Positions 13,019 through 63,452 of a stretch of DNA of 64,000 nt are shown here, piece by piece. Under the pieces are notes generated by a model that ran no database searches, was not told the DNA's origin, and saw only the letters and a program-made list of their open reading frames with translations. The DNA comes from Tardiphaga sp. Lineage in GTDB: Bacteria > Pseudomonadota > Alphaproteobacteria > Rhizobiales > Xanthobacteraceae. The translations under genes were made by a program, and so were the position numbers. Every line of letters begins with the position of its first letter. Within the stretch, counting starts at the first letter, position 1. The stretch is taken from positions 1-64,000 of the forward strand of contig NZ_JAQGJT010000044.1 in the NCBI RefSeq assembly GCF_028290495.1, in the 5' to 3' direction.

Positions 13019-14164
13019 TTACCTAGCCGTCAGCGTCAAAATCATCTCTTCGGATGGCTGACGAGCATCTCTGTTGCGCGAATTGCCACCGAGCGTGGAA
13101 AAGCGGCTTGTCACCTTTGAAGACTTGATGCGGAAAAACTGATTGGCGAGCTCCGTAACTCTTTCCCCGCTAAGGCCATTAGATGCCTCTCCCGCCGGAA
13201 AGGTGATGATGGCATCAGTTCCAACGCTCGCCAAACTTTTCAGAAGCGCTTCGAACGCATCCTCCGAAGATTTGACGAGACTGTACTTCGACTGGGGCCG
13301 CTTTCCGATTTCGGGGTATCGGCCCTCTCCCGAGACAGCAACGAGTTTGCCGCCAACGAGCGTTTCGAGAACATGATAAAACCGACTGTAGTGAACACCC
13401 GAATATGGTGGATCAAGAAACGCGATATCGCCTTCCTTCAAAGTTGAAGCCATGTCATTGGCGTCCGTCTTTGTGGCTGCGCCTTTCCGCTTCGAAAACA
13501 TTGGAGCTATTGCGTCGTACGACTGGTGTAGGCATGCACCGACATCTCTCTGCCATGCAGCCTTCAGAAATTCGCCGGCGGTTAGGTTCGGCTTGAACGA
13601 CTGTGCGGTGTGGCCGGGTGCCGCAGCACAGCGGCTTGCTACCCAAATAAGAGAAGCTAGTGCGGCGCACCGCGCGTCTTTATTGAGGGGCAGCGTCGCG
13701 CGAAGTGCATCGATAGTTAGAGATTGTTGCGGACTGAAGTAATAGCCACCGTATGCCTTCGAAATCGGATAGGGCATCTCGGCGCATAAATCACGTGCGC
13801 GGTCGCAAGTAGACTTAATGTCCTCCGTCGCTATTCGCTTCTGCAATCGCTTGGTTCGACCGACGAAGTCCGAAGCTGCTTCCCATGTTGTTGCTCTGTC
13901 AGCCCAGTCTTCTAGCCATTTTCTTTTCAGTGGCTTAGTGCGCCCAATAACGCTCGAAGCGAGCACGACAGAGTATTTTTGAAGATCACCGGCCAGAACT
14001 TCCACATCGTACTTCTGAGCTACATGCCAAGCTACAGCAGCAGAGCCGGTAAACATGTCGACGAAGCGTTTATGGCCCGGCACGGCAGACTGAATGGCCT
14101 CGCCTAAGCCATTGAGCAACATTGAGCGCTTTGAACCCATATACTTCACGAGCCTAAGCTCCAT
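13019..14164 (-). CDS. D12-class (Dam-like) N6-adenine DNA methyltransferase
   Basis: A 381-residue protein with the D12 class order of motifs: KYMGSKRSML near the N-terminus, the SAM-binding motif FVDMFTGSAAVAWH, and the catalytic DPPY motif in FLDPPYSGVHYSRFYH in the second half. It would transfer a methyl group from S-adenosylmethionine to adenine N6 in a specific DNA sequence. The ATG at 14164 is chosen because the family N-terminus begins there; it overlaps the upstream gene by 19 bases, so the two are co-translated. No recognisable endonuclease is adjacent, but the unknown upstream gene could be its partner. The spacing to a tRNA-like fragment suggests a mobile origin. Confidence 0.88.
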   Translation of the reverse strand: MELRLVKYMGSKRSMLLNGLGEAIQSAVPGHKRFVDMFTGSAAVAWHVAQKYDVEVLAGDLQKYSVVLASSVIGRTKPLKRKWLEDWADRATTWEAASDFVGRTKRLQKRIATEDIKSTCDRARDLCAEMPYPISKAYGGYYFSPQQSLTIDALRATLPLNKDARCAALASLIWVASRCAAAPGHTAQSFKPNLTAGEFLKAAWQRDVGACLHQSYDAIAPMFSKRKGAATKTDANDMASTLKEGDIAFLDPPYSGVHYSRFYHVLETLVGGKLVAVSGEGRYPEIGKRPQSKYSLVKSSEDAFEALLKSLASVGTDAIITFPAGEASNGLSGERVTELANQFFRIKSSKVTSRFSTLGGNSRNRDARQPSEEMILTLTAR

Positions 14165-15141
14165 ACGCCAATTCGTTCCGCTTCTGATACGGTGGGCAAA
14201 CCAAGCGGCACACGCTTCATCCACGCGTTCATTGAAATCGGAACGGGGGATCTTGATGATGTCAGATCTGCGAGAGCCAATTTGACGTCCTCCCACAAGT
14301 CAGCGGGTTGTTGCAAAGGAGCGGCGGGATCCCAAAACCCTCTTGCTTCCGCGTATGGGTCTATCCAGGGGCGCCAATTGCCATTGCCAACTTGAACTCC
14401 AGCATCATTGAAGTTTGATATCGTAAAAGCAGTAGCGGCGCGCAGCAGCAGGTAGGCCCTCGCAAGCATCTCGGCGGCCATAGCAGGAGAAGCGGTCGAA
14501 CGAGCATACGTTAGTAATGTCGGTTCATTCGGCTCACTAATGCCGGTCAGGAAATGCTCAGATGCGATCCTGCGAATGACGTCAGGAAGTTCCGCGTAGC
14601 GGCGTGCAATGGCGCCGCTTTCTTTGCTAGTGCCGTTTGCCAGCAGGTCATGCTGTTGCCAGAGCATTGAACGAAGTAGAAATCGGTCAAGTTGGTCAAA
14701 GCTAGAAGAAGATGTGGGTTCAAAGAGTGCCCATAGCCCTTCAATAAAATCGAGGCGCTCGCCTGGAACGTCAGGCATGGGCTCAAACGCCTGAGCGTTG
14801 TAGCTAGACATATTTCGACTGCGATGCTCATCCCTGCCGCGTCTCAGGTCAATTCCCCAGGCCTCGATAAGGGTTCCGGCTACGGCAGACGCAGCTGCAC
14901 CGGGCCAAATTGCATCCAGGCAGTTTGCGAGCGAAGAGCCGCCTATTCGCACAAGCTTCAGGAAATCTCGCGCCGATTGCGGGTCACTAACCCATCCGCT
15001 CAGTGCCCCCCAAACGGCGTCATGGGTGCCTTTGCCCCGCATAGGCTCTCCCGGGGCCGGCGGGTCGAACCTCACCGCGGCGCCGTTAGAGTTAATTACG
15101 AAGTTTATGCCATTGAAAATCCCAATGCCTAGAGATCCCAA
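14146..15141 (-). CDS. Protein of unknown function coupled to a DNA methyltransferase
   Basis: A 331-residue soluble protein that I do not recognise. It starts MGSLGIGIFNGINFVIN and is rich in alpha-helical, Ala- and Leu-containing segments (for example PAMAAEMLARAYLLLRAATAF, split by polar turns) with conserved-looking Trp and Asp residues near the C-terminus (NWRPWIDPYAEARGFWDP). No PD-(D/E)XK, HNH, GIY-YIG or P-loop motif is evident. Its 3' end overlaps the methyltransferase start by 19 bases, which implies a shared role. A restriction or other defence effector, or a specificity or regulatory partner, is possible but unproven. Confidence 0.7.
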   Translation of the reverse strand: MGSLGIGIFNGINFVINSNGAAVRFDPPAPGEPMRGKGTHDAVWGALSGWVSDPQSARDFLKLVRIGGSSLANCLDAIWPGAAASAVAGTLIEAWGIDLRRGRDEHRSRNMSSYNAQAFEPMPDVPGERLDFIEGLWALFEPTSSSSFDQLDRFLLRSMLWQQHDLLANGTSKESGAIARRYAELPDVIRRIASEHFLTGISEPNEPTLLTYARSTASPAMAAEMLARAYLLLRAATAFTISNFNDAGVQVGNGNWRPWIDPYAEARGFWDPAAPLQQPADLWEDVKLALADLTSSRSPVPISMNAWMKRVPLGLPTVSEAERIGVWSLGS

Positions 15142-16372: not shown

Positions 16373-18862
16373 TCAGTATTTGACGTTACCTCTCAGAGTG
16401 AGCGCAGAGACCCGCCCCGATGGGCGCAAATTATCGGACGTATGCTGGGGCGGTGCCAGGCGCACGATCTTGCGATGCCCAAACGCCATATGAAAATAAT
16501 TGTCGTCGGGCAGGAATTCGTTGTCCGCGATTTCAATGAAACGCGTCGTCGTGGCGGCTTGCAAGTCGAGAAAGAAACCTGCGTCGTCTTTGCCAAGCAC
16601 AATGCCAATCGTTTGGTCAACCGCTGACGTCGGGGGACAAAGAAAATGAAAGGCCTCTTGAGGTTGATCAGAGTCCTCGGCTGCGAACGTTGCATGCACG
16701 GTGTCATGCGCTGCTGGCCCAAAGCGATAGCAGTGACCGGCGTCGAAGAACCGGTCGAGTATCTCGAACGCCCCAATTGAAAGCCCGGCATGCGGCGCGA
16801 TGGTCACATTGCGCACCGCTTCGATCACCGGCGTCTTGCCGTCTCTCAGGCAGCGCAACGTAAGTTTGCCTGTGACGGCCCGCGGCGTGTCGTTGACGAG
16901 ATGCAGATAGAGCCCGTTGGTGCCTTCGTCGGTGATTGACAGACGCAGCGGTAGCGAGGCGCGGCGCAATGCGTAGAAGGCAGATTTCGGACGGCCGCAG
17001 GAATCCAGCAGGCCCCAGCCTGCGCCGGGCTGCAGGTCGCGCCACAGCCATATCAGCGCGCCAGCGGTGGTGGAGGCTGGGCGGCGCCATTCGTCGATCG
17101 TCCGTTCGATGACTTCGGCTGTGATCGCGCGCGAAAGGCGGCGCCAGCGCCCGGGGTCGCTGAGGCGCAGGCTGCGGCCGTCTTCGTTCCACAGCGCCTG
17201 AAGATAATGCTCGCGCACATCGTCGAAATCCCACGACGCGCCGCCGTCACGCGGCACGCCGGCGAGCCAGCGTTCCGGATCTCTGGCAGGATCGAGCCGA
17301 TGGTCAGCGAAGTGGCGATCGTCCGGCAGGTTGGCGAAAGCGAGGCACTCGGAGGCAAAGCGGACATTGGCGCGGCGCGCATCGTCGAGGGGCCGCAAAT
17401 ATGCGCCCACGCCGTAATAATGCGACGGGCCGGCTTCGGCCACGAAGGGCAGCGCGCCGCCGGACGGCGAACCCGGCACATAGGCGACGTCACACAAGCT
17501 GGCCAGAACTTCAGGAATGACAGTTTCCGCCAATGGCACGTCGCGCATCTGGCGTGGCAGGCCCATCATCGCAGCCTGCTGACCGACCTCGCTGCCGCCG
17601 CATATTACGACTAGTGACGGCGACGCGCTCAACCGGCGAACGACCGTAGTGGTTTCGCTGCGGATGACTTCAGCAAAGGCGTCATCCGACGGATAGTCAA
17701 AATTGGCCATCATGATGTCCTGCCAGACCATGATGCCGAGCCTGTCGCAGAGGCGGTGGAACGCCGGGGCCTCATAGACCATGGTGCCGCTGAGACGGAC
17801 CATGTTGAGGCCGGCATTTTGCATCAGGCCAAGGTCCTGCGCGTAATCCGCATCAGATGCCTGCAGGCTGACCACGTCGATCGGCGTCCAACATGCGCCG
17901 CGGCAGAAAATGCGGACGCCGTTTACATGCAGGGTGAAGCCATTTCCGTCCGGTCCGCGGTCGACCTGGATCCGGCGAAATCCTACCTCTCCGAGGTCGA
18001 TTCGGACGGCACCGATGTCGATAGTCACAGCATGGAGCGTCGGGCTGCCATGGGTGTGAGGCCACCACAGGTCCACATCGGGGATACGCAGCGTGCCCTG
18101 CCAACGCGTCGGCTCTGACAGCGGTGCTTCCGTGTCGAGTGGTATCAGCAGCGCCTCCGCCCCGGCGCAGCGCAGGACCGGCATCACGCCTTTGGCCACC
18201 CCCGACAGATCGAGCGCGAGCGTCAGAACGCCTTCGGCTTCTTCGAGCCGGCTGCGCAGATCGACATGGCCAGCGCGAACAAGTCCCTCTTCCATCAGTT
18301 GCACAGACCGGTATGGGCCGACCACATCAACGGGCGGACACCACCCGGGCATATGCCCGATCAGCGTGGTGCGCAGGAACCGCAGCCGCGGCTCCTCGAT
18401 CATCATCGTCTTCCAGCGTGCCCGGGGACCTTTCGTTCCTGCCAGCACCCGGCTGAGGCTCCTGAAGGCGATATGGACCCAATGCTCGCCGCCGAGGATG
18501 ATATCGGCCTCATACGGCTCGAACATCGAGCTGCCAGTCAGGATGAGCCTGTCGTCGAGGAAAACCTCAGCGAATGTCGCGAGTCCCTCGAACCGTAGCT
18601 TACGCTTGCCGCGTCCACTGATAGGGAGCCGGTACCAGACGTCCTTGTCGTGCAGAGGCTGAGGGTCATCGAAACTCCATTGTCCGAGGGCCCGCAGCGC
18701 GCCAGCGGCCGTTCCAGGGACGATAGCGGGCAACCAGACTGCCTCACTCAACCCGCTGGGCTCTTGCCATGCCTGAGGGGGCGACAGCGCCAGTTCCCAG
18801 CCGCTGTCGAGCGGCTTCACCTTGCGTCCCGTCATGGCGCGGATGTCGGTCATGGCAATCAA
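16373..18862 (-). CDS. Glycoside hydrolase family 2 protein, beta-mannosidase-like
   Basis: An 829-residue protein with the GH2 order: an N-terminal jelly-roll sugar-binding domain (FEGLATFAEVFLDDRLI), an immunoglobulin-like domain (TLHAVTIDIGAVRIDLGEVG) leading into the barrel (NGVRIFCRGACWTPID), and C-terminal beta domains. Candidate catalytic glutamates are E425 in CGGSEVGQQ (acid/base) and E505 in FASECLAF (nucleophile); the surroundings differ from standard beta-mannosidases. No signal peptide is seen, so it is probably cytosolic. It is the last gene of the operon containing a carrier protein and amino acid:carrier-protein ligase, 16 bp after the DUF1839 gene, so it may act on a glycoside intermediate or product rather than on polysaccharide. 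Confidence 0.85.
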   Translation of the reverse strand: MIAMTDIRAMTGRKVKPLDSGWELALSPPQAWQEPSGLSEAVWLPAIVPGTAAGALRALGQWSFDDPQPLHDKDVWYRLPISGRGKRKLRFEGLATFAEVFLDDRLILTGSSMFEPYEADIILGGEHWVHIAFRSLSRVLAGTKGPRARWKTMMIEEPRLRFLRTTLIGHMPGWCPPVDVVGPYRSVQLMEEGLVRAGHVDLRSRLEEAEGVLTLALDLSGVAKGVMPVLRCAGAEALLIPLDTEAPLSEPTRWQGTLRIPDVDLWWPHTHGSPTLHAVTIDIGAVRIDLGEVGFRRIQVDRGPDGNGFTLHVNGVRIFCRGACWTPIDVVSLQASDADYAQDLGLMQNAGLNMVRLSGTMVYEAPAFHRLCDRLGIMVWQDIMMANFDYPSDDAFAEVIRSETTTVVRRLSASPSLVVICGGSEVGQQAAMMGLPRQMRDVPLAETVIPEVLASLCDVAYVPGSPSGGALPFVAEAGPSHYYGVGAYLRPLDDARRANVRFASECLAFANLPDDRHFADHRLDPARDPERWLAGVPRDGGASWDFDDVREHYLQALWNEDGRSLRLSDPGRWRRLSRAITAEVIERTIDEWRRPASTTAGALIWLWRDLQPGAGWGLLDSCGRPKSAFYALRRASLPLRLSITDEGTNGLYLHLVNDTPRAVTGKLTLRCLRDGKTPVIEAVRNVTIAPHAGLSIGAFEILDRFFDAGHCYRFGPAAHDTVHATFAAEDSDQPQEAFHFLCPPTSAVDQTIGIVLGKDDAGFFLDLQAATTTRFIEIADNEFLPDDNYFHMAFGHRKIVRLAPPQHTSDNLRPSGRVSALTLRGNVKY

Positions 18863-18878
18863 TGGGCCGATGTGGCGA

Positions 18879-19871
18879 TCAAGCTACGGCACCGCGAGCG
18901 ACGAACTTGTTCATGAGGCTGTCGAGGGCGATGTCGTAATCGGTCGCGAGCTGGCGGATGGCACCCGTCATATCAGGAACTTTGCCGCGGGCCGAGGCGC
19001 GGGCAAACTGAAACTGCATAATCTTGGTGCCGCCAGCGATCGCCTCCGCGGCCAGCCTGGCGCGCTCCAGCGCGGGATCACCGTGCTCTTGCAACCACGC
19101 CAAATAGGACGCGAGCAGTTCGAAGTTCGCACCGGCCTGACGCAATGTGCTGAAAGCGTAAGTGTGAAACCACTCGGGAGGCCGTTCCATCAGCCGGGCG
19201 ATGTCGGCGCCGATCACTTCGCCCCATGCCGTAAATGGATTCTGCGACGGACGACGACGTAGATGTTGCGCAAGCAGCATGCGAGATATTTTGACCTGCT
19301 CGTGTGCAGACGGCGCCGGACCGAACTTGATGAATTCGACATAGGGGAATAGTGGCAGACCGTTTTCACGTGCGGGCCGCAACAGCGCGTCGAAATCTTC
19401 GCCTTCGAGGCGGAAGTATCCGCCATTGTGAAAGTAATCGAGCCGGCGGTTGACCGAATCCAGAACGTTGACGCCGATTGTCGTTTTGCTGTGGCTGCGG
19501 CGGTAGGTGATGCCGCGGGTATCCGGCAGATAGTAAGAATCGACCTCGATCAGTGGCAGACGGCCACGCGCCAACTGCACGCGCGCGTGATCTTCCAGCT
19601 GGTCGAAGATAGCGAGCTCCAGAATCTCGACACCGTACAGCAGCGCGAGATCGGCGGCCGGAATCTTGAAAAACGTGAACTGGTCGCCCTCGTAATCCTG
19701 CGCAACCGTAAAAGCCAGCGCGGCTCGGGGATTATGCCCGCGTTGGCCCAGCACTTCGATCAGCAGATCGACGTAGCAGTTGGTCTCGGGCCAGTTGCGC
19801 GCGGGATCATGCAGCCCATGACGCGCATAGGTTGCGGGATCCAGTCCATCGATGGCGCAAGCGGTTTGCAA
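18879..19871 (-). CDS. DUF1839 family protein, candidate BtrH-like aminoacyltransferase
   Basis: A 330-residue protein. The N-terminal part shows ETNCYVDLLIEVL with Cys32, then EVDSYYLPDT, a His in YRRSHSKT (His127), and Asp138 or Asp145 beyond it. This order of Cys, VDSYYLP and His is what I recall for BtrH-type papain-like acyltransferases, which move an aminoacyl group from a carrier protein to an amine. That resemblance is from memory and needs structural confirmation. The gene lies 3 bp after the amino acid:carrier-protein ligase and 16 bp before a GH2 gene, which suits a transferase that unloads the carrier protein. Confidence 0.75.
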   Translation of the reverse strand: MQTACAIDGLDPATYARHGLHDPARNWPETNCYVDLLIEVLGQRGHNPRAALAFTVAQDYEGDQFTFFKIPAADLALLYGVEILELAIFDQLEDHARVQLARGRLPLIEVDSYYLPDTRGITYRRSHSKTTIGVNVLDSVNRRLDYFHNGGYFRLEGEDFDALLRPARENGLPLFPYVEFIKFGPAPSAHEQVKISRMLLAQHLRRRPSQNPFTAWGEVIGADIARLMERPPEWFHTYAFSTLRQAGANFELLASYLAWLQEHGDPALERARLAAEAIAGGTKIMQFQFARASARGKVPDMTGAIRQLATDYDIALDSLMNKFVARGAVA

Positions 19872-19874
19872 GGC

Positions 19875-20804
19875 CTAGCCCCACAAGACGCGGCGGACAT
19901 CCGCAGGCCACGCGTCGACCTTGGTGCCATGGTGACGGAACAGCGCCAGCGCCGTCCGCTCCAGGCCGAAGCCGACGCAGGCCGAATGCGCGACTTCGCC
20001 GTTCGCGAAATGCATGCCCCACAGGCTGCCAAAATGGTTCTGATGATAGTTGAACGACAGACACGCCGTTGGATTTTCATCGCTCGCGACCGGGATCAGC
20101 AACTCGAACTTCAGCCCCTGGTCGCGCTGGCTCGACGCCAGGACACGGCCGGTGCGCCCGAAAAATGGATCGTTGGCGACATCGATGACGCAAGGCAGGC
20201 CCAACGAGGCGATCAGCTTTTCACCGCGCTCGAGCCAGGTGGCCCGGAAAGACGTCACTTCATCGGCAGTGCCGATACGGACGAATTCGCGCATCCGGAA
20301 CAGCTGCATCCGCGCCGGATCCTTCGAGGGCTCATGACGGAAGCAGTATGACTTGAGATCGAACAGCCGGCCGCCTTCCGGCACCGGACCTTCCGCCGCG
20401 ACAGTGGGATACAGCGGATAGCATGCAGCCGGCGTCAGAGCGACTTCGGTCGCTTCCTGCATTTCGGTCCAGTCTTCGCCCCGCTCGATCATGCCGACAA
20501 GCTTGGCATGGTCGGTGTTGTCGCCCATGAAAGAGTGGACGCAGCCGGCCAGTTGCGGAAAGCTCTTCAGGTAACCGGCTTTCTCGAGATTCTTGCGCGG
20601 CATGCCCGGCGGAAAATGAATCCGCGTGGCCCGATCGCCGACGGCCATTTTCGTTACCGCATTTTCGAATCCGTCGATGACCTCTTCGAACACACCGGCG
20701 CGGCCATAGAGGCCGTCGACGCCGGTCTTGATCAGGATCGATTCGTCGAACAGGGCAGTGAGAAACGCTTCAGGACTTTGCACGACTTTAGCAGGCGCGT
20801 TCAT
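19875..20804 (-). CDS. Amino acid:[carrier protein] ligase (truncated seryl-tRNA synthetase homologue)
   Basis: A 309-residue class II synthetase-like core without a tRNA-binding arm. Motif 2 is visible as [20 protein letters not shown] and motif 3 as [13 protein letters not shown]. Cys128, Glu173 and Cys276 match the Cys/Glu/Cys zinc site of atypical SerRS and of the Bradyrhizobium homologues, which are known to activate glycine or alanine with ATP and attach it to the phosphopantetheine of a small carrier protein instead of tRNA. The ATG at 20804 follows GGAG located in the end of the upstream gene; an ATG 18 bases earlier would overlap that gene. The adjacent carrier protein gene is the obvious acceptor. 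Which amino acid is used cannot be read here. Confidence 0.88.
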
Positions 20805-20809
20805 CACTA

Positions 20810-22018
20810 TCACTCCAGACATGAGTCAAACCGGCCCGCGACCACCAGGCCGGCGGTGTTGGCGAGAATACGATCGTTTGCCACCATCAGCGGCGCCGAC
20901 AACACATCTCTGAGATGGCGCCCGACCGAGAATGGACCGTCGTTGCGGTAGCCGGCGATGCCGGTCACCATCAACGCTTCACGTACGATGTCGACGGCCA
21001 TGTTCGAAGCCATGACCTTGAGATTGTTCATTTCGATCGCGAAATTGATCGAGCTGAGATCGTCTTCGTCATGCTTCGCCGTCTCGAACCGTTCGATATG
21101 GGCGACGAGCGTCGACTTGAACGTCTGCAACTTTGCGGTGGCCTCAGCCAGTCGAGCTGCGCCTGGGAGCGGTCCCGCGAAATCGGACGGCATGCGCCGC
21201 GCCGTTGCCCGAACCGAGGCATGCGCGCGCGACAGGGCGTCGGTCGCGATTCCGAACCAGACGCTGGACCACAGTACATGTGCGGTGGCCAGCATGGATT
21301 GCACTGCGATCTCGTGGAACGGCTTCGGAAAGATCTGATCGGCTCCGGCCGTTGCCGTCAGCAGAAAACCCTCGGAGCAGGTGGCGCGCATGCCTAGCGT
21401 ATTCCACTCGGCGGTGCGCTGAAGTTGATAGTCGCTACGCCGCAGCGCGATCAGGACCTGGTCGGACCCGGCCGACGCCGGACCACGGCGTGCGGTCGCC
21501 ATGATGATATCGGCTTCCGTGGCATATGACAGGACACTTGCCTGTTTGATCAGCGAAACCCGGTCACCCGTCATCTCGATTGCGCAATTCGAGATACGCA
21601 TATCGCCGCCGATGCCGGCTTCCGTGGTCGACGACGCAATCAATAGCTGCTTTGCGACAACGTCCCGCATGAGCGCGCGATGATATTCGGTTTGCATGCC
21701 ATGCGCGACCAGGCTCGACAGCTTGATCTGATGCATCGCGTAAACCATGCCGCTGGCGCCGCAGGCGCCTGCGAGTACAGCGCAAAGATCGGCGATCTTG
21801 CGCAATCCCAATTCTTGGCCGCCAAGGCTCTTGGGCACCATCAAGCCGAGCATACCGCTACAACGAAGAGCTTCGAATGTCTGCGCCGGAAACGTTGCGG
21901 TTCGGTCCGCGAGATCGGAATTTGGCGAAGCAACGTCGGTAGCAATCCGCTGCATCACGTCACGCCAGGACGCGGCTTCGGGCAGGTCAACGCCTTGCTT
22001 CACCGCGTTCGGGATCAT
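20810..22018 (-). CDS. Acyl-CoA dehydrogenase-like flavoprotein
   Basis: A 402-residue member of the acyl-CoA dehydrogenase fold: an N-terminal helical domain, a middle beta domain ([17 protein letters not shown], the FAD- and substrate-contact region) and a C-terminal helical bundle ending [21 protein letters not shown]. The ATG at 22018 is chosen since it lies just after the carrier-protein stop. Relatives in such operons are thought to oxidise an acyl group held on a carrier protein, as in proline or beta-alanine oxidation on peptidyl carrier proteins. Here the substrate could be the aminoacyl-carrier protein made by the ligase (inference). Confidence 0.85.
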
Positions 22019-22022
22019 GACC

Positions 22023-22268
22023 CTAGACTTTCTGAGCGGCGAGTTGCTCAACAGCAGAAATCAATCCACCAAGCGTCGCAAATGTCTTGCGAGTCAGCAG
22101 GCTATTGGGAAATTCGATATCGAATTCCTCCTCGATCGCCAGCATCAGCTGAACCGAACCGAACGAGGTCATGCCCGCATCGAACAGATTATCCTGGTCG
22201 GACAAGCCATCGGCCGGAACGGGGAGAAGGTTCATCGATCCGACAATGGTGCGCACGCGGTCACGCAT
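22023..22268 (-). CDS. Acyl (aminoacyl) carrier protein
   Basis: An 81-residue acidic protein of carrier-protein size. The phosphopantetheine attachment site is the Ser in DAGMTSFGSVQLM (about Ser35), replacing the common DSL with TSF, followed by the recognition helix AIEEEFDIEFPNSLL. It is the first gene of the five-gene minus-strand operon and is followed 4 bp later by the dehydrogenase-like gene. It is the expected amino-acid acceptor for the ligase two genes downstream. Confidence 0.9.
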   Translation of the reverse strand: MRDRVRTIVGSMNLLPVPADGLSDQDNLFDAGMTSFGSVQLMLAIEEEFDIEFPNSLLTRKTFATLGGLISAVEQLAAQKV

Positions 22269-22756
22269 GAAGGTTCTCCAAGGTTGTGAAAGATCCTGCC
22301 GCGGGTTGCGGACAGCGTCAGATTTTTATGCCGGCGACGTGATATCAGTTAAATGTCGAGTGAATCGTAAACAGCCTCAAATGCAACGGATCGTTCCGAT
22401 ATCAAGCTTAACAAAATGAAGATGTGATCAGTCGAGATTGACGCATGCGTCAACAGAGTTGCCGCCCGAAGTCGCTTCGGGATGGCGCTCTCGAGCAGCG
22501 GCGTCGATGTCGGGAGCGGCGCTTTCGACGCCGATCGCAAATCCTCAACATGATTAGCGAACGGCTAAATACCGGAAAAACACACAGAGCTTGAGCACGT
22601 GTTAATGATGGAACACGATATCGAATGACACCTTCGTCGCCCTCAAGTTAAGAAATCGATATCCCGCAAGGGCGATTACTCGACAGTAAAAATATCGAAA
22701 TGCCGGCCGGTTCGATGGGCGAACGGGATCAGGCAAACTGTGATAGTTTTAAAATC
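22269..22756. other. Divergent promoter region
   Basis: This AT-richer gap separates the carrier-protein operon (minus) from the tandem hydrolase gene (plus). It contains a perfect 16-bp palindrome (22438-22453) and a short GC hairpin (22465-22481, CCCGAAG-TCG-CTTCGGG). No gene is seen. It presumably holds promoters for both directions, but I cannot assign -35/-10 boxes with confidence. Confidence 0.6.
22438..22453. promoter_or_regulatory. Perfect 16-bp palindrome, candidate operator
   Basis: TTGACGCATGCGTCAA reads the same on both strands. It lies 170 bp upstream of the carrier-protein start and about 300 bp upstream of the hydrolase start, in the shared divergent region. The size and symmetry fit a homodimeric repressor or activator, but no regulator gene sits in the cluster. 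Confidence 0.45.
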
Positions 22757-24520
22757 ATGACTTCCCGATATGGCATACCGGTAACGTTTGATACTTTCGG
22801 CGGCTTCTATCACGCAGGCTGCATCGACCGGCAAGGACGTAAGGCGGTGCTGCTGCTGGCGCCTATCGGATACGAGGAATTGTGTACCCGCGCCACATGG
22901 CGCGTTTTGGCCGAGAATATTGCCGCGGCAGGCCATGCCTGCCTCAGGTTCGATTATCCCGGCACCGCAGATGCCATCGATCCTGTTGACGATCCCGAAG
23001 GCATCTCGGACTGGTTCGTTGCTGCCCGTCAGTGCATGGCATTCTTGCGAGAATACAATCCCGGCATCGAACTCGTTCTGGTCGGACAAGGCTTTGGCGC
23101 CAGTCTGGCCGCTCAGCTCGGAACCGAATCGCCCGACGTCGCAGCGGCGGTCTTGATGGCGCCGGTGGTCAAAGGCCGCGCATATCTTCGTGAACTTCAA
23201 GCCTGGTCGCGCATGCTGACCGAGCGGATGGGTATCGGGCCCGACCCTTTGGACGACAACGGCTACAGCGTCGCCGGTATTTCACTGGCAAGCAGCCGCG
23301 CCGCAGCCATCCAGGCGATCGATCTCACCCGGGCAACCCAGTCTCCTGCCGCACGGATCCTTTTGGTCGAGCGCAGTCAAATTTCTCGCGACGGCGCGAT
23401 CGGAAGCCACCTGAAGACGCTCGGAGCCGATGTTTCGTCCATCGACTACGCGGGCTATGAAATGATCCTGCAGGATCCAACGCCGGCCGAACCGCAACTC
23501 GGCACGCTGACGCGCATCGTGTCATGGATCGATGATCTCGCGCATCTTCCGACGGCGGGCGCCAGGGTCCCCGCCAGGGCGCCAGGGCCGGCGCGGCCGC
23601 TCGCCGGCCCCCACTATGAGGAACTGCCGGTTCGGTTCGGGCCAGACGAGCAGCTCTTCGGCGTCCTGTGTCAACCGCTCGGCCGAAGGCCTTCAGCTAT
23701 CGCGGTCCTCGCCAATTCGGGGCGCGACTATCACATCGGCTGGGGGCGCGCGGCCGTACAACAGGCTCGTGCCCTCGCAGAGCGCGGGATAGCCTCGTTC
23801 AGATTCGACGCCGGGGGCATCGGCGACAGTCCGGCTTCGGCAAGCGCGCCAGCCGAAGTGCTTTATTCGGATGAGCAAATTGCTGACCTGCGTCACGCGA
23901 TCGACTATGTCGAAAAACTCGATGCTGGCCCGATCGCTTTGGTCGGACGCTGCAGTGGGGCTTACGCCGCATTCCAGGTAGCTGTGCAAGATGTGCGCGT
24001 TCGCAATGTCGTCGTCATCAACATCATGCGTTTTGTCTGGGACCCCGCGGAGACTGTCGCAGAAGCGCTGCAATCGGCCCATCGAACCATCGGTAGTTCC
24101 GTTGGGCTGCTGTTCAGCAAACGAAGCCTTAGACGGCTGCTGTCAGGAAATTTGCGCATCAAGGTTCCGCTTATCTTTGTCTCGAAACGCCTTATTCAAA
24201 TCGCCTCATCGATAGTCAGACAAATTGCCGCAGTCCGGCCCGGCCAGACGCTCTACAGCGAAGGTCACCGCCGATTCCAAACCCTCGAAAGTCGTGGCGT
24301 TCGCCTGGCGATGTTGTTTTCGCAAGGAGATCACGCGCTGGGCGAATTCCGTACGTATATGGGAAGAAAGGGCGCGCAGCTGCGCCGCTATCCGAAGGCG
24401 TTGGTTTCGATCATCCCTGATGCCGACCACAATTTCACGCATTTGGGGGCGCGCGCGCGACTAACGAGAGTCTTGTGCGACGTGCTCGCGGCGCCCTCGT
24501 CATCGACATCCCGCGGGTAG
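22757..24520 (+). CDS. Tandem alpha/beta hydrolase (exosortase-associated hydrolase-like)
   Basis: A 587-residue protein made of two alpha/beta hydrolase halves. The first (about 1-265) has LLLAPIGYEELCTRATWRV and LRFDYPGTADA; the second (about 290-580) repeats RARALAERGIASFRFDAGG. In the first half the nucleophile elbow reads GQGFG, with Gly112 where Ser should be. In the second it reads GRCSG, with Cys399 in the nucleophile position, and a His in DADHNFTH. So only the second half looks catalytic. Such sequences resemble hydrolases linked to exosortase and exopolysaccharide loci, none of which is seen here. The ATG at 22757 is chosen by family resemblance; earlier in-frame starts at 22700 and 22715 exist. 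It is divergent from the carrier-protein operon. Confidence 0.78.
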   Translation: MTSRYGIPVTFDTFGGFYHAGCIDRQGRKAVLLLAPIGYEELCTRATWRVLAENIAAAGHACLRFDYPGTADAIDPVDDPEGISDWFVAARQCMAFLREYNPGIELVLVGQGFGASLAAQLGTESPDVAAAVLMAPVVKGRAYLRELQAWSRMLTERMGIGPDPLDDNGYSVAGISLASSRAAAIQAIDLTRATQSPAARILLVERSQISRDGAIGSHLKTLGADVSSIDYAGYEMILQDPTPAEPQLGTLTRIVSWIDDLAHLPTAGARVPARAPGPARPLAGPHYEELPVRFGPDEQLFGVLCQPLGRRPSAIAVLANSGRDYHIGWGRAAVQQARALAERGIASFRFDAGGIGDSPASASAPAEVLYSDEQIADLRHAIDYVEKLDAGPIALVGRCSGAYAAFQVAVQDVRVRNVVVINIMRFVWDPAETVAEALQSAHRTIGSSVGLLFSKRSLRRLLSGNLRIKVPLIFVSKRLIQIASSIVRQIAAVRPGQTLYSEGHRRFQTLESRGVRLAMLFSQGDHALGEFRTYMGRKGAQLRRYPKALVSIIPDADHNFTHLGARARLTRVLCDVLAAPSSSTSRG

Positions 24521-62768: not shown

Positions 62769-63452
62769 ATGAGGGCGCAGGTGAACTGGAAGCTGGTCAG
62801 CCTTGTCGTCGTTGTGGCGTGCGCGTCGGCTGCCGTTTGGATTTCGGCAACGAAGAATCAGACGCCTGACCTGCACCGGGAAGCGCGCCAGTTCACTGTG
62901 TACCAGACCCTGAACAGGTACAGCGATCCCGTCATTGTCCTTGGCGACAGCATCGTTGAGGCCTCTACCTTGTCGCGGTCGATCTGCGGGCGCGCGATCG
63001 TGAATGCCGGCCTGAATGGTGCTTCCACAGCCAGCGACCTTGGCGGATGGCTGGCGGCTGCACTCGACGGCAAACGCGCTGCCATGATCGTGGTGTCGCT
63101 GGGCGTCAACGACGCCATGTCGCCGGCTACGCAAGGCAAGGACGAGTTTGCCACTCGCTACGGCGCGTTGCTGGACCGGCTGTCTTCATCGACGCCGCGG
63201 CTTGCCGTGCTGGAGATCGCGCCGGTCGAAGCGCAGGGGCGCATGACCGTCAAATTGCGCGACGAGCTGACGCAGACCGTCAAGAACTACAACAACATCC
63301 TGCGCGACGTGGCGGCGAAGCATGGCGCGACCTTCGTCGCTTTGCCGGCGATGCCGGCACCTTACACGGTCGATGGCGTGCATTTGAACGCGAACGGCTA
63401 TCAGGCGTGGGATCAGGCCGTCATGCAGGCAGCAGGGGCGGTCTGTGGCTGA
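62769..63452 (+). CDS. SGNH/GDSL hydrolase family protein
   Basis: A 227-residue esterase-like protein with an N-terminal hydrophobic segment (VSLVVVVACASAAVWI). Block I is VLGDSIVEA (Ser61), block II Gly lies in GLNGAS, block III Asn in LGVNDA, and the final Asp-His is in DGVHLNANGY. It resembles periplasmic acyl-modification enzymes. Its stop overlaps the next gene's GTG, which codes for an acyltransferase, so they may together modify a polysaccharide (inference). Confidence 0.87.
   Translation: MRAQVNWKLVSLVVVVACASAAVWISATKNQTPDLHREARQFTVYQTLNRYSDPVIVLGDSIVEASTLSRSICGRAIVNAGLNGASTASDLGGWLAAALDGKRAAMIVVSLGVNDAMSPATQGKDEFATRYGALLDRLSSSTPRLAVLEIAPVEAQGRMTVKLRDELTQTVKNYNNILRDVAAKHGATFVALPAMPAPYTVDGVHLNANGYQAWDQAVMQAAGAVCG

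Follow-up and report, generated by a model that had tools for sequence, protein, structure and literature searches.

What becomes of an amino acid once an aminoacyl-tRNA synthetase (aaRS)-like ligase has placed it on a carrier protein? To our knowledge, the fate of this aminoacyl group has been open since the carrier-protein ligases were described in 2010. The window analyzed here, a 64,000-nucleotide stretch of a Tardiphaga contig, raises the question through a minus-strand operon (16373-22268), all five reading frames of which were present when the ORFs were checked. In order, these encode an 81-aa carrier protein (22023..22268; PF00550, 1.6e-10; NF005480, 90.9 bits versus a cut-off of 72), a flavoprotein of the acyl-CoA dehydrogenase (ACAD) fold (20810..22018; 402 aa from the likely ATG at 22018, in a frame open to 22051), an amino acid:[carrier protein] ligase with a class II aaRS-like core (19875..20822; 309 to 315 aa, from an ATG at 20804 or 20822), a 330-aa DUF1839 protein with a TTG start (18879..19871; PF08893, 2e-119), and a beta-mannosidase-like glycosidase of family GH2 (16373..18862; 826 to 829 aa, from an ATG at 18853 or a TTG at 18862; PF22666, 5e-9). 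The ORFs and family matches bear out the gene order and coordinates given by the first-pass annotation. Its intergenic gaps of 3-16 bp hold for one set of start codons; with start codon choice the gaps are 4, 5, 3, and 16-25 nt, and a 13-nt overlap replaces one of them if the ligase starts at 20822. Divergent from the operon, on the plus strand, lies a gene for a tandem alpha/beta-hydrolase (22700..24520; 587 to 606 aa; PF12146/PF12697), and the intergenic stretch between the two units (22269..22699) is, by its position, the putative site of both promoters.

Conservation rules out chance ORFs as the source of the operon: among 80 distinct loci that encode DUF1839, all five genes share one orientation and the same order in 76. 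Two Propionibacteriaceae contigs that carry only DUF1839 and GH2 within the stretch examined, one contig end, and one Mycolicibacterium rearrangement make up the other four. Neighboring genes were grouped from gene calls based on codon usage. Within a sample of 397 Rhizobiales genomes, the ligase was present in all 65 that encode DUF1839 (Fisher 2e-55, with kinship ignored), and the co-occurrence of the five families, whose absence the first-pass annotation would have counted as a refutation, is thus confirmed. Across 72 loci the five proteins have correlated pairwise distances (r 0.66-0.89), and a single branch (support 98/84) separates ligases that occur with DUF1839 from those that do not. 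The cassette is an inherited unit of five linked genes. It was also found on plasmids (59 PLSDB records). We ruled out phage cargo as its nature, as none of 50,697 phage records matched DUF1839 at a threshold of E 1e-5. The hosts include many soil and plant-associated bacteria, and in some bean symbionts the cassette lies directly behind nif genes.

The ligase scores above the cut-off of its curated family (NF005479, 482.6 bits versus 357), and its nearest solved relatives are structures of the Bradyrhizobium carrier-protein ligase Bll0957 (PDB 4h2w, E 8e-119; 3mey, E 4e-115). Residues C121, E166, and C269, which we take to be a Zn site, are kept in 83/83 rows and align with the same residues of 4h2w. 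The protein is a catalytic core without a tRNA-binding part, matching SerRS models only at 311-502 and 310-497 of 518, so we rejected tRNA aminoacylation; at the sequence level, the earlier assignment to the carrier-protein type rather than the tRNA type stands. By analogy with the characterized relative, the ligase would load the carrier protein in an ATP-dependent manner, presumably with glycine or alanine, the substrates of its relatives. The carrier protein retains its phosphopantetheine serine (Ser35, in DAGMTS) in 82/82 aligned rows. A phosphopantetheinyl transferase gene follows GH2 in Mycolicibacterium.

Bll0957-type (type B) loci share with the cassette the ligase family, its Cys-Glu-Cys residues, and the grouping of ligase, flavoprotein, and carrier protein. 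They differ in lacking DUF1839 and GH2, in having the carrier protein on the opposite strand, and in the separate clade of their ligases; the ligase of one such locus, L152, matches Bll0957 at E 1.5e-215. Beside some type B ligases lies a protein that by eye resembled a GNAT, an identity that we dropped when 3/3 examples gave no Pfam hit at a threshold of 1e-3. In expression studies, bll0957 appears together with bll0958 in a phaR mutant list only (PMC10888616), and the ligase gene Atu2573 in a co-expression module list only (PMC11941606).

The flavoprotein matches PF02771 (5e-9) and PF00441, and its AlphaFold2 (AF2) model (pLDDT 84) matches ACADs, DnmZ, DszC, and KijD3, placing it in the ACAD fold. 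The nitrososynthase/amino-sugar N-oxygenases DnmZ and KijD3 are among its best solved relatives by both sequence and fold. At columns 358 and 225, which we take to be the two catalytic Glu positions of ACADs (MCAD or IVD), all 82 aligned rows instead have I/V and S/A/T/C, respectively. The R-x-x-F-G motif, presumably part of the ACAD FAD site, is missing from 13/13 aligned flavoproteins that accompany a ligase (8 from type A and 5 from type B loci) and is present in ACADs L205 and L208 of the same genome (comparators L205, L208, L209, L213, L223, L228, and L233). The signature residues of a plain acyl-CoA dehydrogenase are thus absent. Those of a DszC-type monooxygenase are absent as well: the C-terminal His of the RDA...H motif, which we take as the signature of DszC-like flavin monooxygenases, is replaced by Met in 80 and by Gln in 2 of the 82 rows. 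With the ACAD Glu positions and R-x-x-F-G gone, it is the predicted fold alone that points to a redox enzyme. A precedent comes from AzsF/Tri22, described in a section of PMC10445470 as an ACAD-family enzyme performing C-N oxidation of a glycine-like acyl group on a carrier protein.

The first-pass annotation had proposed DUF1839 as an acyltransferase. The AF2 model of the protein (pLDDT 89) has full-length Foldseek matches to chains of the AziU2-U3 complex, CtaG, and CcbD, spanning 322-367 alignment columns at E 1e-7 to 7e-4. These fold matches are moderate (TM-scores of ~0.6, rmsd of 5-7 A), and among the matches listed the full-length ones are to amide-forming enzymes, not proteases. We take the AziU2-U3 complex to belong to the azinomycin pathway and CtaG to the closthioamide pathway. 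Sequence comparison detected no similarity to solved chains, CcbD included (best E 0.57), so we class DUF1839 as working like CcbD and CtaG and not as a member of their family. The transferase proposal thus gains from the predicted fold, which matches carrier-protein-dependent amide synthases, and draws nothing from sequence homology to them. Four residues, C32, T130, T131, and H148, are invariant (82/82 rows). C32, a candidate nucleophile, stands at the start of helix 32-43 in the model; judged without residue-level superposition, H148 ends the strand where an acid would be expected, and T130 lies where His would be expected. The triad is likely Cys-Thr-His, unlike the Cys-His-Glu of CcbD or the Cys-His-Asp implied by CtaG variants. 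A passage of PMC10318531 reports the same Thr/His arrangement for the family.

For GH2, the nearest solved chains are beta-mannosidases (5n6u, 1e-48; 2je8, 4e-33), from which we predict a beta-mannosidase-like activity. The catalytic Glu pair, E416 and E496 in alignment numbering, is conserved in 82/82 rows, with E416 facing CGNNE of 2je8 and E496 facing RFISE of 5n6u. No signal peptide was evident by eye. Three Rhizobium plasmids have a broken GH2 and keep the other four genes; GH2 may therefore be dispensable in the cassette. The tandem alpha/beta-hydrolase falls below the NCBIfam cut-offs (hydr1_PEP, 1.6e-26; hydr2_PEP, 2e-11) and has no solved relatives at 1e-4. Its homologues occur in 53 of 85 loci within the stretches examined, making it a frequent sixth partner, and are fused to a flippase in three loci.

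Glycosyltransferases of PF00534 account for 15 of 110 proteins flanking the relatives, versus no more than 2 of 112 controls. In Shinella, genes for an O-antigen ligase and GumC lie within 10 kb of the cassette, and the Mycolicibacterium cassette has glycosyltransferases nearby. Among the 25 Pfam families listed, of 64 matched by 41 other proteins of this window, there was no glycosyltransferase or flippase, although one may occur as a single match among the remaining families; none is annotated near the cassettes of Caballeronia and Azospirillum in an incomplete gene table. A polysaccharide acceptor is therefore not general.

One close parallel among known systems is the lincosamide synthetase (CcbC/LmbC, CcbZ/LmbN-CP, CcbD/LmbD), which, like the cassette, combines an aminoacyl carrier protein with a stand-alone papain-fold enzyme. 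The loader is an NRPS A-domain in the lincosamide system and an aaRS-like ligase in the cassette, and we know of no flavoprotein or GH2 at the lincosamide condensation step. In butirosin biosynthesis, to which BtrH belongs, the side chain is built by other enzymes, and none of the 50 fold matches listed for DUF1839 is a BtrH structure. Portions of PMC12945683 describe CcbD as passing proline from its carrier protein to an amino sugar via a Cys thioester, and portions of PMC10318531 place BtrH, an acyl carrier protein:aminoglycoside acyltransferase, in the same papain-like superfamily as DUF1839.

The evidence shows which genes are present, how they are ordered and conserved, and which folds are predicted for them; on this basis we favor a scheme in which a small amino-acid-derived acyl group would be made and transferred without NRPS and without tRNA. 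The ligase would activate a small amino acid with ATP and load it onto the carrier protein's phosphopantetheine arm, as expected for its family. The flavoprotein would then oxidize the carrier-bound aminoacyl group, either through C-N dehydrogenation, giving an imino-acyl thioester, or through N-oxygenation. Because of its predicted fold, invariant residues, and linkage, the papain-fold DUF1839 protein may take the acyl group onto Cys32 and pass it to an amine, forming an amide. The acceptor would most likely be an amino sugar within a glycan or glycoside, with GH2 trimming the glycoside, the tandem hydrolase acting late, on an ester or amide intermediate, and a flippase perhaps exporting the product in many relatives; this last step is the weakest. 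Every reaction is one that we infer, and we put the scheme of loading, oxidation, and amide transfer to an amine, most likely of an amino sugar, at a probability of about 0.55. A fuller version is speculative: glycine on the carrier protein would be oxidized at its amine side, by an ACAD-fold enzyme devoid of the ACAD base, to an imino/glyoxylyl or N-hydroxyglycyl group, which the Cys-Thr-His transferase would attach through an amide bond to an amino sugar in a glycan bound for export. In bean symbionts the cassette would have been recruited to the symbiotic plasmid's nif region.

Loading, oxidation, and transfer could conceivably proceed as above but yield a diffusible small molecule, an amino-sugar or amine conjugate (a signal, a siderophore-like compound, or an antibiotic), in place of a surface glycan. 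The closest structural relatives of DUF1839 listed serve small-molecule pathways, the cassette resembles a small portable unit carried by plasmids, and glycan-assembly genes were not seen near it in this window, Caballeronia, or Azospirillum within the families and gene table given above. The enrichment of glycosyltransferases in the flanks of other relatives, the flippase-hydrolase fusion, and the Shinella and Mycolicibacterium neighborhoods speak against a diffusible product, which we consider a tentative alternative. It is unlikely that DUF1839 is instead a thioesterase or peptidase that only sets the oxidized acyl group free, so that the pathway would supply a metabolite (for example glyoxylate, an imino acid, or N-hydroxyglycine): the full-length fold matches listed are to amide-forming enzymes, not proteases, and a free small acid would leave unexplained the GH2 found in 76/80 cassettes. 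In favor of release, type B ligase loci do without DUF1839, and papain-fold enzymes are frequently hydrolases, according to a section of PMC10318531.

A catabolic or salvage operon, in which GH2 and alpha/beta-hydrolases degrade aminoacylated glycosides and the freed amino acid is salvaged through the ligase and carrier protein, would suit the retained catalytic Glu pair of GH2 and the transport and dehydrogenase families common among the window neighbors. Yet the conserved five-gene set includes no transporter, and loading on a carrier protein with ATP is a biosynthetic device, making salvage improbable. Least credible is a protein or tRNA as the recipient of the aminoacyl group, as when EpmA lysylates EF-P; the cassette does lie near efp-epmA-epmB in some Rhizobiaceae, but an epmA-like neighborhood occurs in only 8/85 loci, the ligase has no tRNA-binding domain, and the dedicated carrier protein and CcbD-like transferase point elsewhere.

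The favored scheme of carrier-bound oxidation and amide transfer has a printed precursor. As given in a section of PMC2922099, a 2010 note in proof drew attention to the same gene neighborhood (with a SerRS paralogue), named Atu2574 as an amide ligase, and predicted that the aminoacyl group is oxidized on the carrier and then joined in amide linkage to an amino sugar of the cell surface. Neither the pathway idea nor the neighborhood is therefore a new proposal, and the two readings were reached independently. That section is without the statistics, the CcbD/CtaG fold link, the tandem hydrolase, and the nif context given here; what is new is the predicted fold match of DUF1839 to solved carrier-protein-dependent amide synthases, together with its invariant Cys32, Thr130, and His148, the missing catalytic Glu residues of the flavoprotein, the tandem hydrolase as a sixth partner, and the abundance of glycosyltransferases in the flanks of many relatives. 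The description of the pathway as uncharacterized is apt insofar as we found no functional experiment on the operon among the papers listed in searches of the open-licence PubMed Central literature, where DUF1839 is mentioned in one paper, and needs amending insofar as that section already set out the idea.

DUF1839 has solved mechanistic relatives (CcbD and CtaG) and a set of invariant candidate catalytic residues, and culturable rhizobia and methylobacteria offer clean five-gene units, which brings the fate of the acyl group down to an assay of one enzyme. Should a surface amino sugar be the acceptor, the cassette would be an aaRS-derived route to decorate bacterial glycans, and the amide on an exported glycan, if true, would represent a novel form of non-sugar decoration on glycans. 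Its position directly behind nif genes in some bean symbionts gives it a possible relevance to symbiosis.

The five open reading frames that the first-pass annotation placed on the minus strand of the window were all present at 16373 to 22268. Family assignment was firm for the carrier protein, the amino acid:[carrier protein] ligase, and DUF1839 and confident at the fold level only for GH2 and the acyl-CoA-dehydrogenase (ACAD)-like flavoprotein; the closest named relative of the window DUF1839 is from Tardiphaga (93% identity). A tandem alpha/beta-hydrolase gene lies at 22700 to 24520 on the plus strand, divergent from the carrier-protein gene, and its product is similar to the “hydrolase 1/2, exosortase A system-associated” families, with scores below their cut-offs.

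We examined 85 DUF1839 loci (the window, 24 loci from a relatives search, and 60 genome stretches, the last drawn from 58 of the 64 remaining DUF1839-positive genomes in the order sample, plus 2 from the family sample), which collapsed to 80 distinct DUF1839 sequences. The genes for carrier protein, flavoprotein, ligase, DUF1839, and GH2 occur on one strand in this order in 76/80 distinct loci, where two loci with split frames (L115 and L116) were scored as complete via their best pieces. The expectation that the five families co-occur across genomes was therefore borne out at the sequence level, with all five genes in 76 of the 80 loci and the ligase in 65/65 DUF1839 genomes of the order sample. 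The exceptions are two Propionibacteriaceae loci (L015 and L017) with DUF1839 and GH2 alone within the stretch examined, a locus at a contig end (L024), and a Mycolicibacterium locus (L025) with the ligase and flavoprotein on the opposite strand. By eye, the neighbors of the isolated pairs (L015:9950-13362 and L017:1181-4594) resemble ribosomal protein genes.

The distribution of DUF1839 is sporadic, with frequencies of 5/149 genomes in the family sample, 65/397 in the order sample, and 16/398 in the phylum sample, and it was found in 59 of 72,556 plasmid records, including those of Rhizobium, Azospirillum, Caballeronia, Cupriavidus, and Mycetohabitans. Across 72 loci, the five gene products show correlated pairwise distances (r = 0.66 to 0.89), as expected if the unit was inherited and moved together. 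Cupriavidus metallidurans carries an additional DUF1839 next to a full cassette (L171:13758-14951 and 18732-19712), and the phylum sample contains two genomes from a different family with two copies each.

In the order sample, the ligase was above cut-off in 88 genomes, which include all 65 with DUF1839. Of the 23 order-sample genomes with a ligase but no DUF1839, we compared 19, together with one whose match fell below the cut-off. The ligase and flavoprotein genes adjoin on one strand in all 19 loci, and 17 have an opposite-strand carrier-protein match (33 to 53 bits); no DUF1839 or GH2 match was detected in any of the 19. The ligase of one such locus (L152) matches Bll0957, the Bradyrhizobium carrier-protein ligase, end to end (E = 1.5e-215), and on sequence similarity we assign the DUF1839-negative loci to the Bll0957 type. 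In PMC10888616, bll0958, an acyl-CoA dehydrogenase, is given as adjoining bll0957. A single branch, supported at 98/84, separates the two types in the ligase tree, in which L025 drew a long-branch warning. The core shared by both locus types thus comprises the ligase, carrier protein, and flavoprotein, whereas DUF1839 and GH2 are added in DUF1839-type loci, where they may determine what becomes of the acyl group. Four Bll0957-type loci (L152, L153, L154, and L156) also carry a conserved protein of ∼290 amino acids immediately 3′ of the ligase, with relatives in seven more loci of this type; three examples had no Pfam match at 1e-3.

An AlphaFold2 model of DUF1839 built from 24 sequences (pLDDT, 89) gave full-length Foldseek matches among solved structures to chains of the AziU2-U3 complex (E = 1e-7), CtaG (E = 6e-7), and CcbD (E = 1.7e-4), all with TM scores of about 0.6, beyond which the ranking falls to E values of 0.08 and worse. 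A sequence search against solved structures returned no match. CcbD is described in PMC12945683 as taking carrier-bound proline onto a Cys and then passing it to an amino-sugar amine. In an alignment that included duplicate loci and excluded rows covering <85% of the profile, C32, H127, K129, T130, T131, and H148 of DUF1839 are present in 82/82 rows. In the model, C32 starts a core helix, T130 lies at a strand start, where His is expected in papain-like enzymes, and H148 closes the following strand, at the expected site of the Asn/Asp of the papain triad. This predicted placement agrees with the Cys-Thr/Ser-His arrangement that modeling proposed for DUF1839 in PMC10318531.

The flavoprotein model matches ACADs and ACAD-fold monooxygenases/N-oxygenases (DnmZ, DszC, and KijD3) about equally. 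When aligned with paralogues from their own genomes, the flavoproteins have I/V at the catalytic Glu position of MCAD-type enzymes and S/A/T/C at the catalytic Glu position of IVD-type enzymes, and they lack both the R-x-x-F-G motif and the DszC-type His. Because the signature residues of each are missing, we rule out both a standard ACAD and a standard monooxygenase. Absence of this base would fit either hydride transfer from an amine, the chemistry used by amino acid oxidases, or N-oxygenation. A chemical precedent is AzsF/Tri22, of the acyl-CoA dehydrogenase family, which is reported to oxidize a carrier-bound hydrazinoacetyl group to the hydrazone (PMC10445470).

Both catalytic Glu residues of GH2 are kept in 82/82 rows; its nearest relatives are beta-mannosidases, and no signal peptide was evident by eye. 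In three Rhizobium plasmids, GH2 is broken and the other cassette genes are kept: it is a fragment under an insertion sequence in L172 and in several pieces in L181 and L235. A homologue of the tandem alpha/beta-hydrolase lies within the examined stretch in 53/85 loci. Its frame opens with a flippase domain (Pfam) in L064 (13918-17196), and the same 1,093- to 1,103-amino-acid flippase-hydrolase frame occurs in L063 (1921-5199) and in L178 of Rhizobium sp. NLR16a (16853-20161), 90% identical over the whole length.

We scanned up to seven of the longest flank proteins per locus in the first 16 of 20 loci, with other stretches of the same genomes as controls. PF00534 glycosyltransferases numbered 15/110 in cassette flanks and at most 2/112 in controls (Fisher P = 8e-4, control count taken as 2), and PF01943 flippases numbered 7/110 and at most 2/112 (P = 0.10, alone not significant); both control values are upper bounds set by the 25 top-ranking of 204 control families, the smallest of these with two members, and the P values are optimistic because some loci are closely related. 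Among the top 25 of 64 Pfam families in 41 other window proteins, there was no glycosyltransferase or flippase, with single matches possible below these, and the window itself thus does not show, among those families, the flank pattern of the scanned relatives. An acyltransferase-3 gene starts at 63445. A D12-class DNA methyltransferase gene with phage-family matches lies at 13019 to 14296 on the minus strand and is the only gene by codon usage in the 12.2- to 16.3-kb stretch, possibly a mobile-element remnant.

In Mycolicibacterium, GH2 is followed by a phosphopantetheinyl transferase gene, with a WecG-type transferase and a GT4 enzyme nearby; in Mycolicibacterium hodleri (L025:7468-13750), the carrier protein, DUF1839, GH2, and phosphopantetheinyl transferase genes share one strand, and the ligase and flavoprotein genes lie on the other. 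In a Rhizobiaceae group, efp, epmA, and epmB (EF-P lysylation) occur near the cassette (e.g., L178:6537-9363), and an epmA-like cluster is also found in L008, L012, L063, L064, L067, L068, L069, and L120. In five Rhizobium plasmids (L177, L181, L235, L236, and L237), nif genes immediately precede the cassette, with nifX and a NifX-associated gene on that side. Four of the five were recorded from Phaseolus vulgaris or its nodules, an exopolysaccharide-repressor-like gene intervenes in 4/5, fdxB is listed in 4/5, and an ACC deaminase gene follows the cassette in 3/5.

This neighborhood was already reported for a SerRS paralogue in a 2010 note in proof (PMC2922099), which predicts amide formation with a cell-surface amino sugar by the uncharacterized ORF Atu2574 and modification of the aminoacyl group by the redox enzyme, with monooxygenation as the probable reaction. 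We infer that Atu2574 is DUF1839 from how that note describes and places it. A 2023 paper (PMC10318531) conjectured, on the basis of gene context, an involvement in glycan processing. The cassette hypothesis has therefore been in print; within the open-licence literature, we found no test of it and no functional experiment on DUF1839. To these proposals we add quantified linkage, the split of the ligase into two types, the fold link between DUF1839 and known amide synthases that use carrier proteins, the atypical residues of the flavoprotein, the tandem hydrolase as a sixth partner, and the nif context. We infer the reactions of the cassette, and we conclude that the cassette itself is real, conserved, horizontally spread, and biosynthetic.
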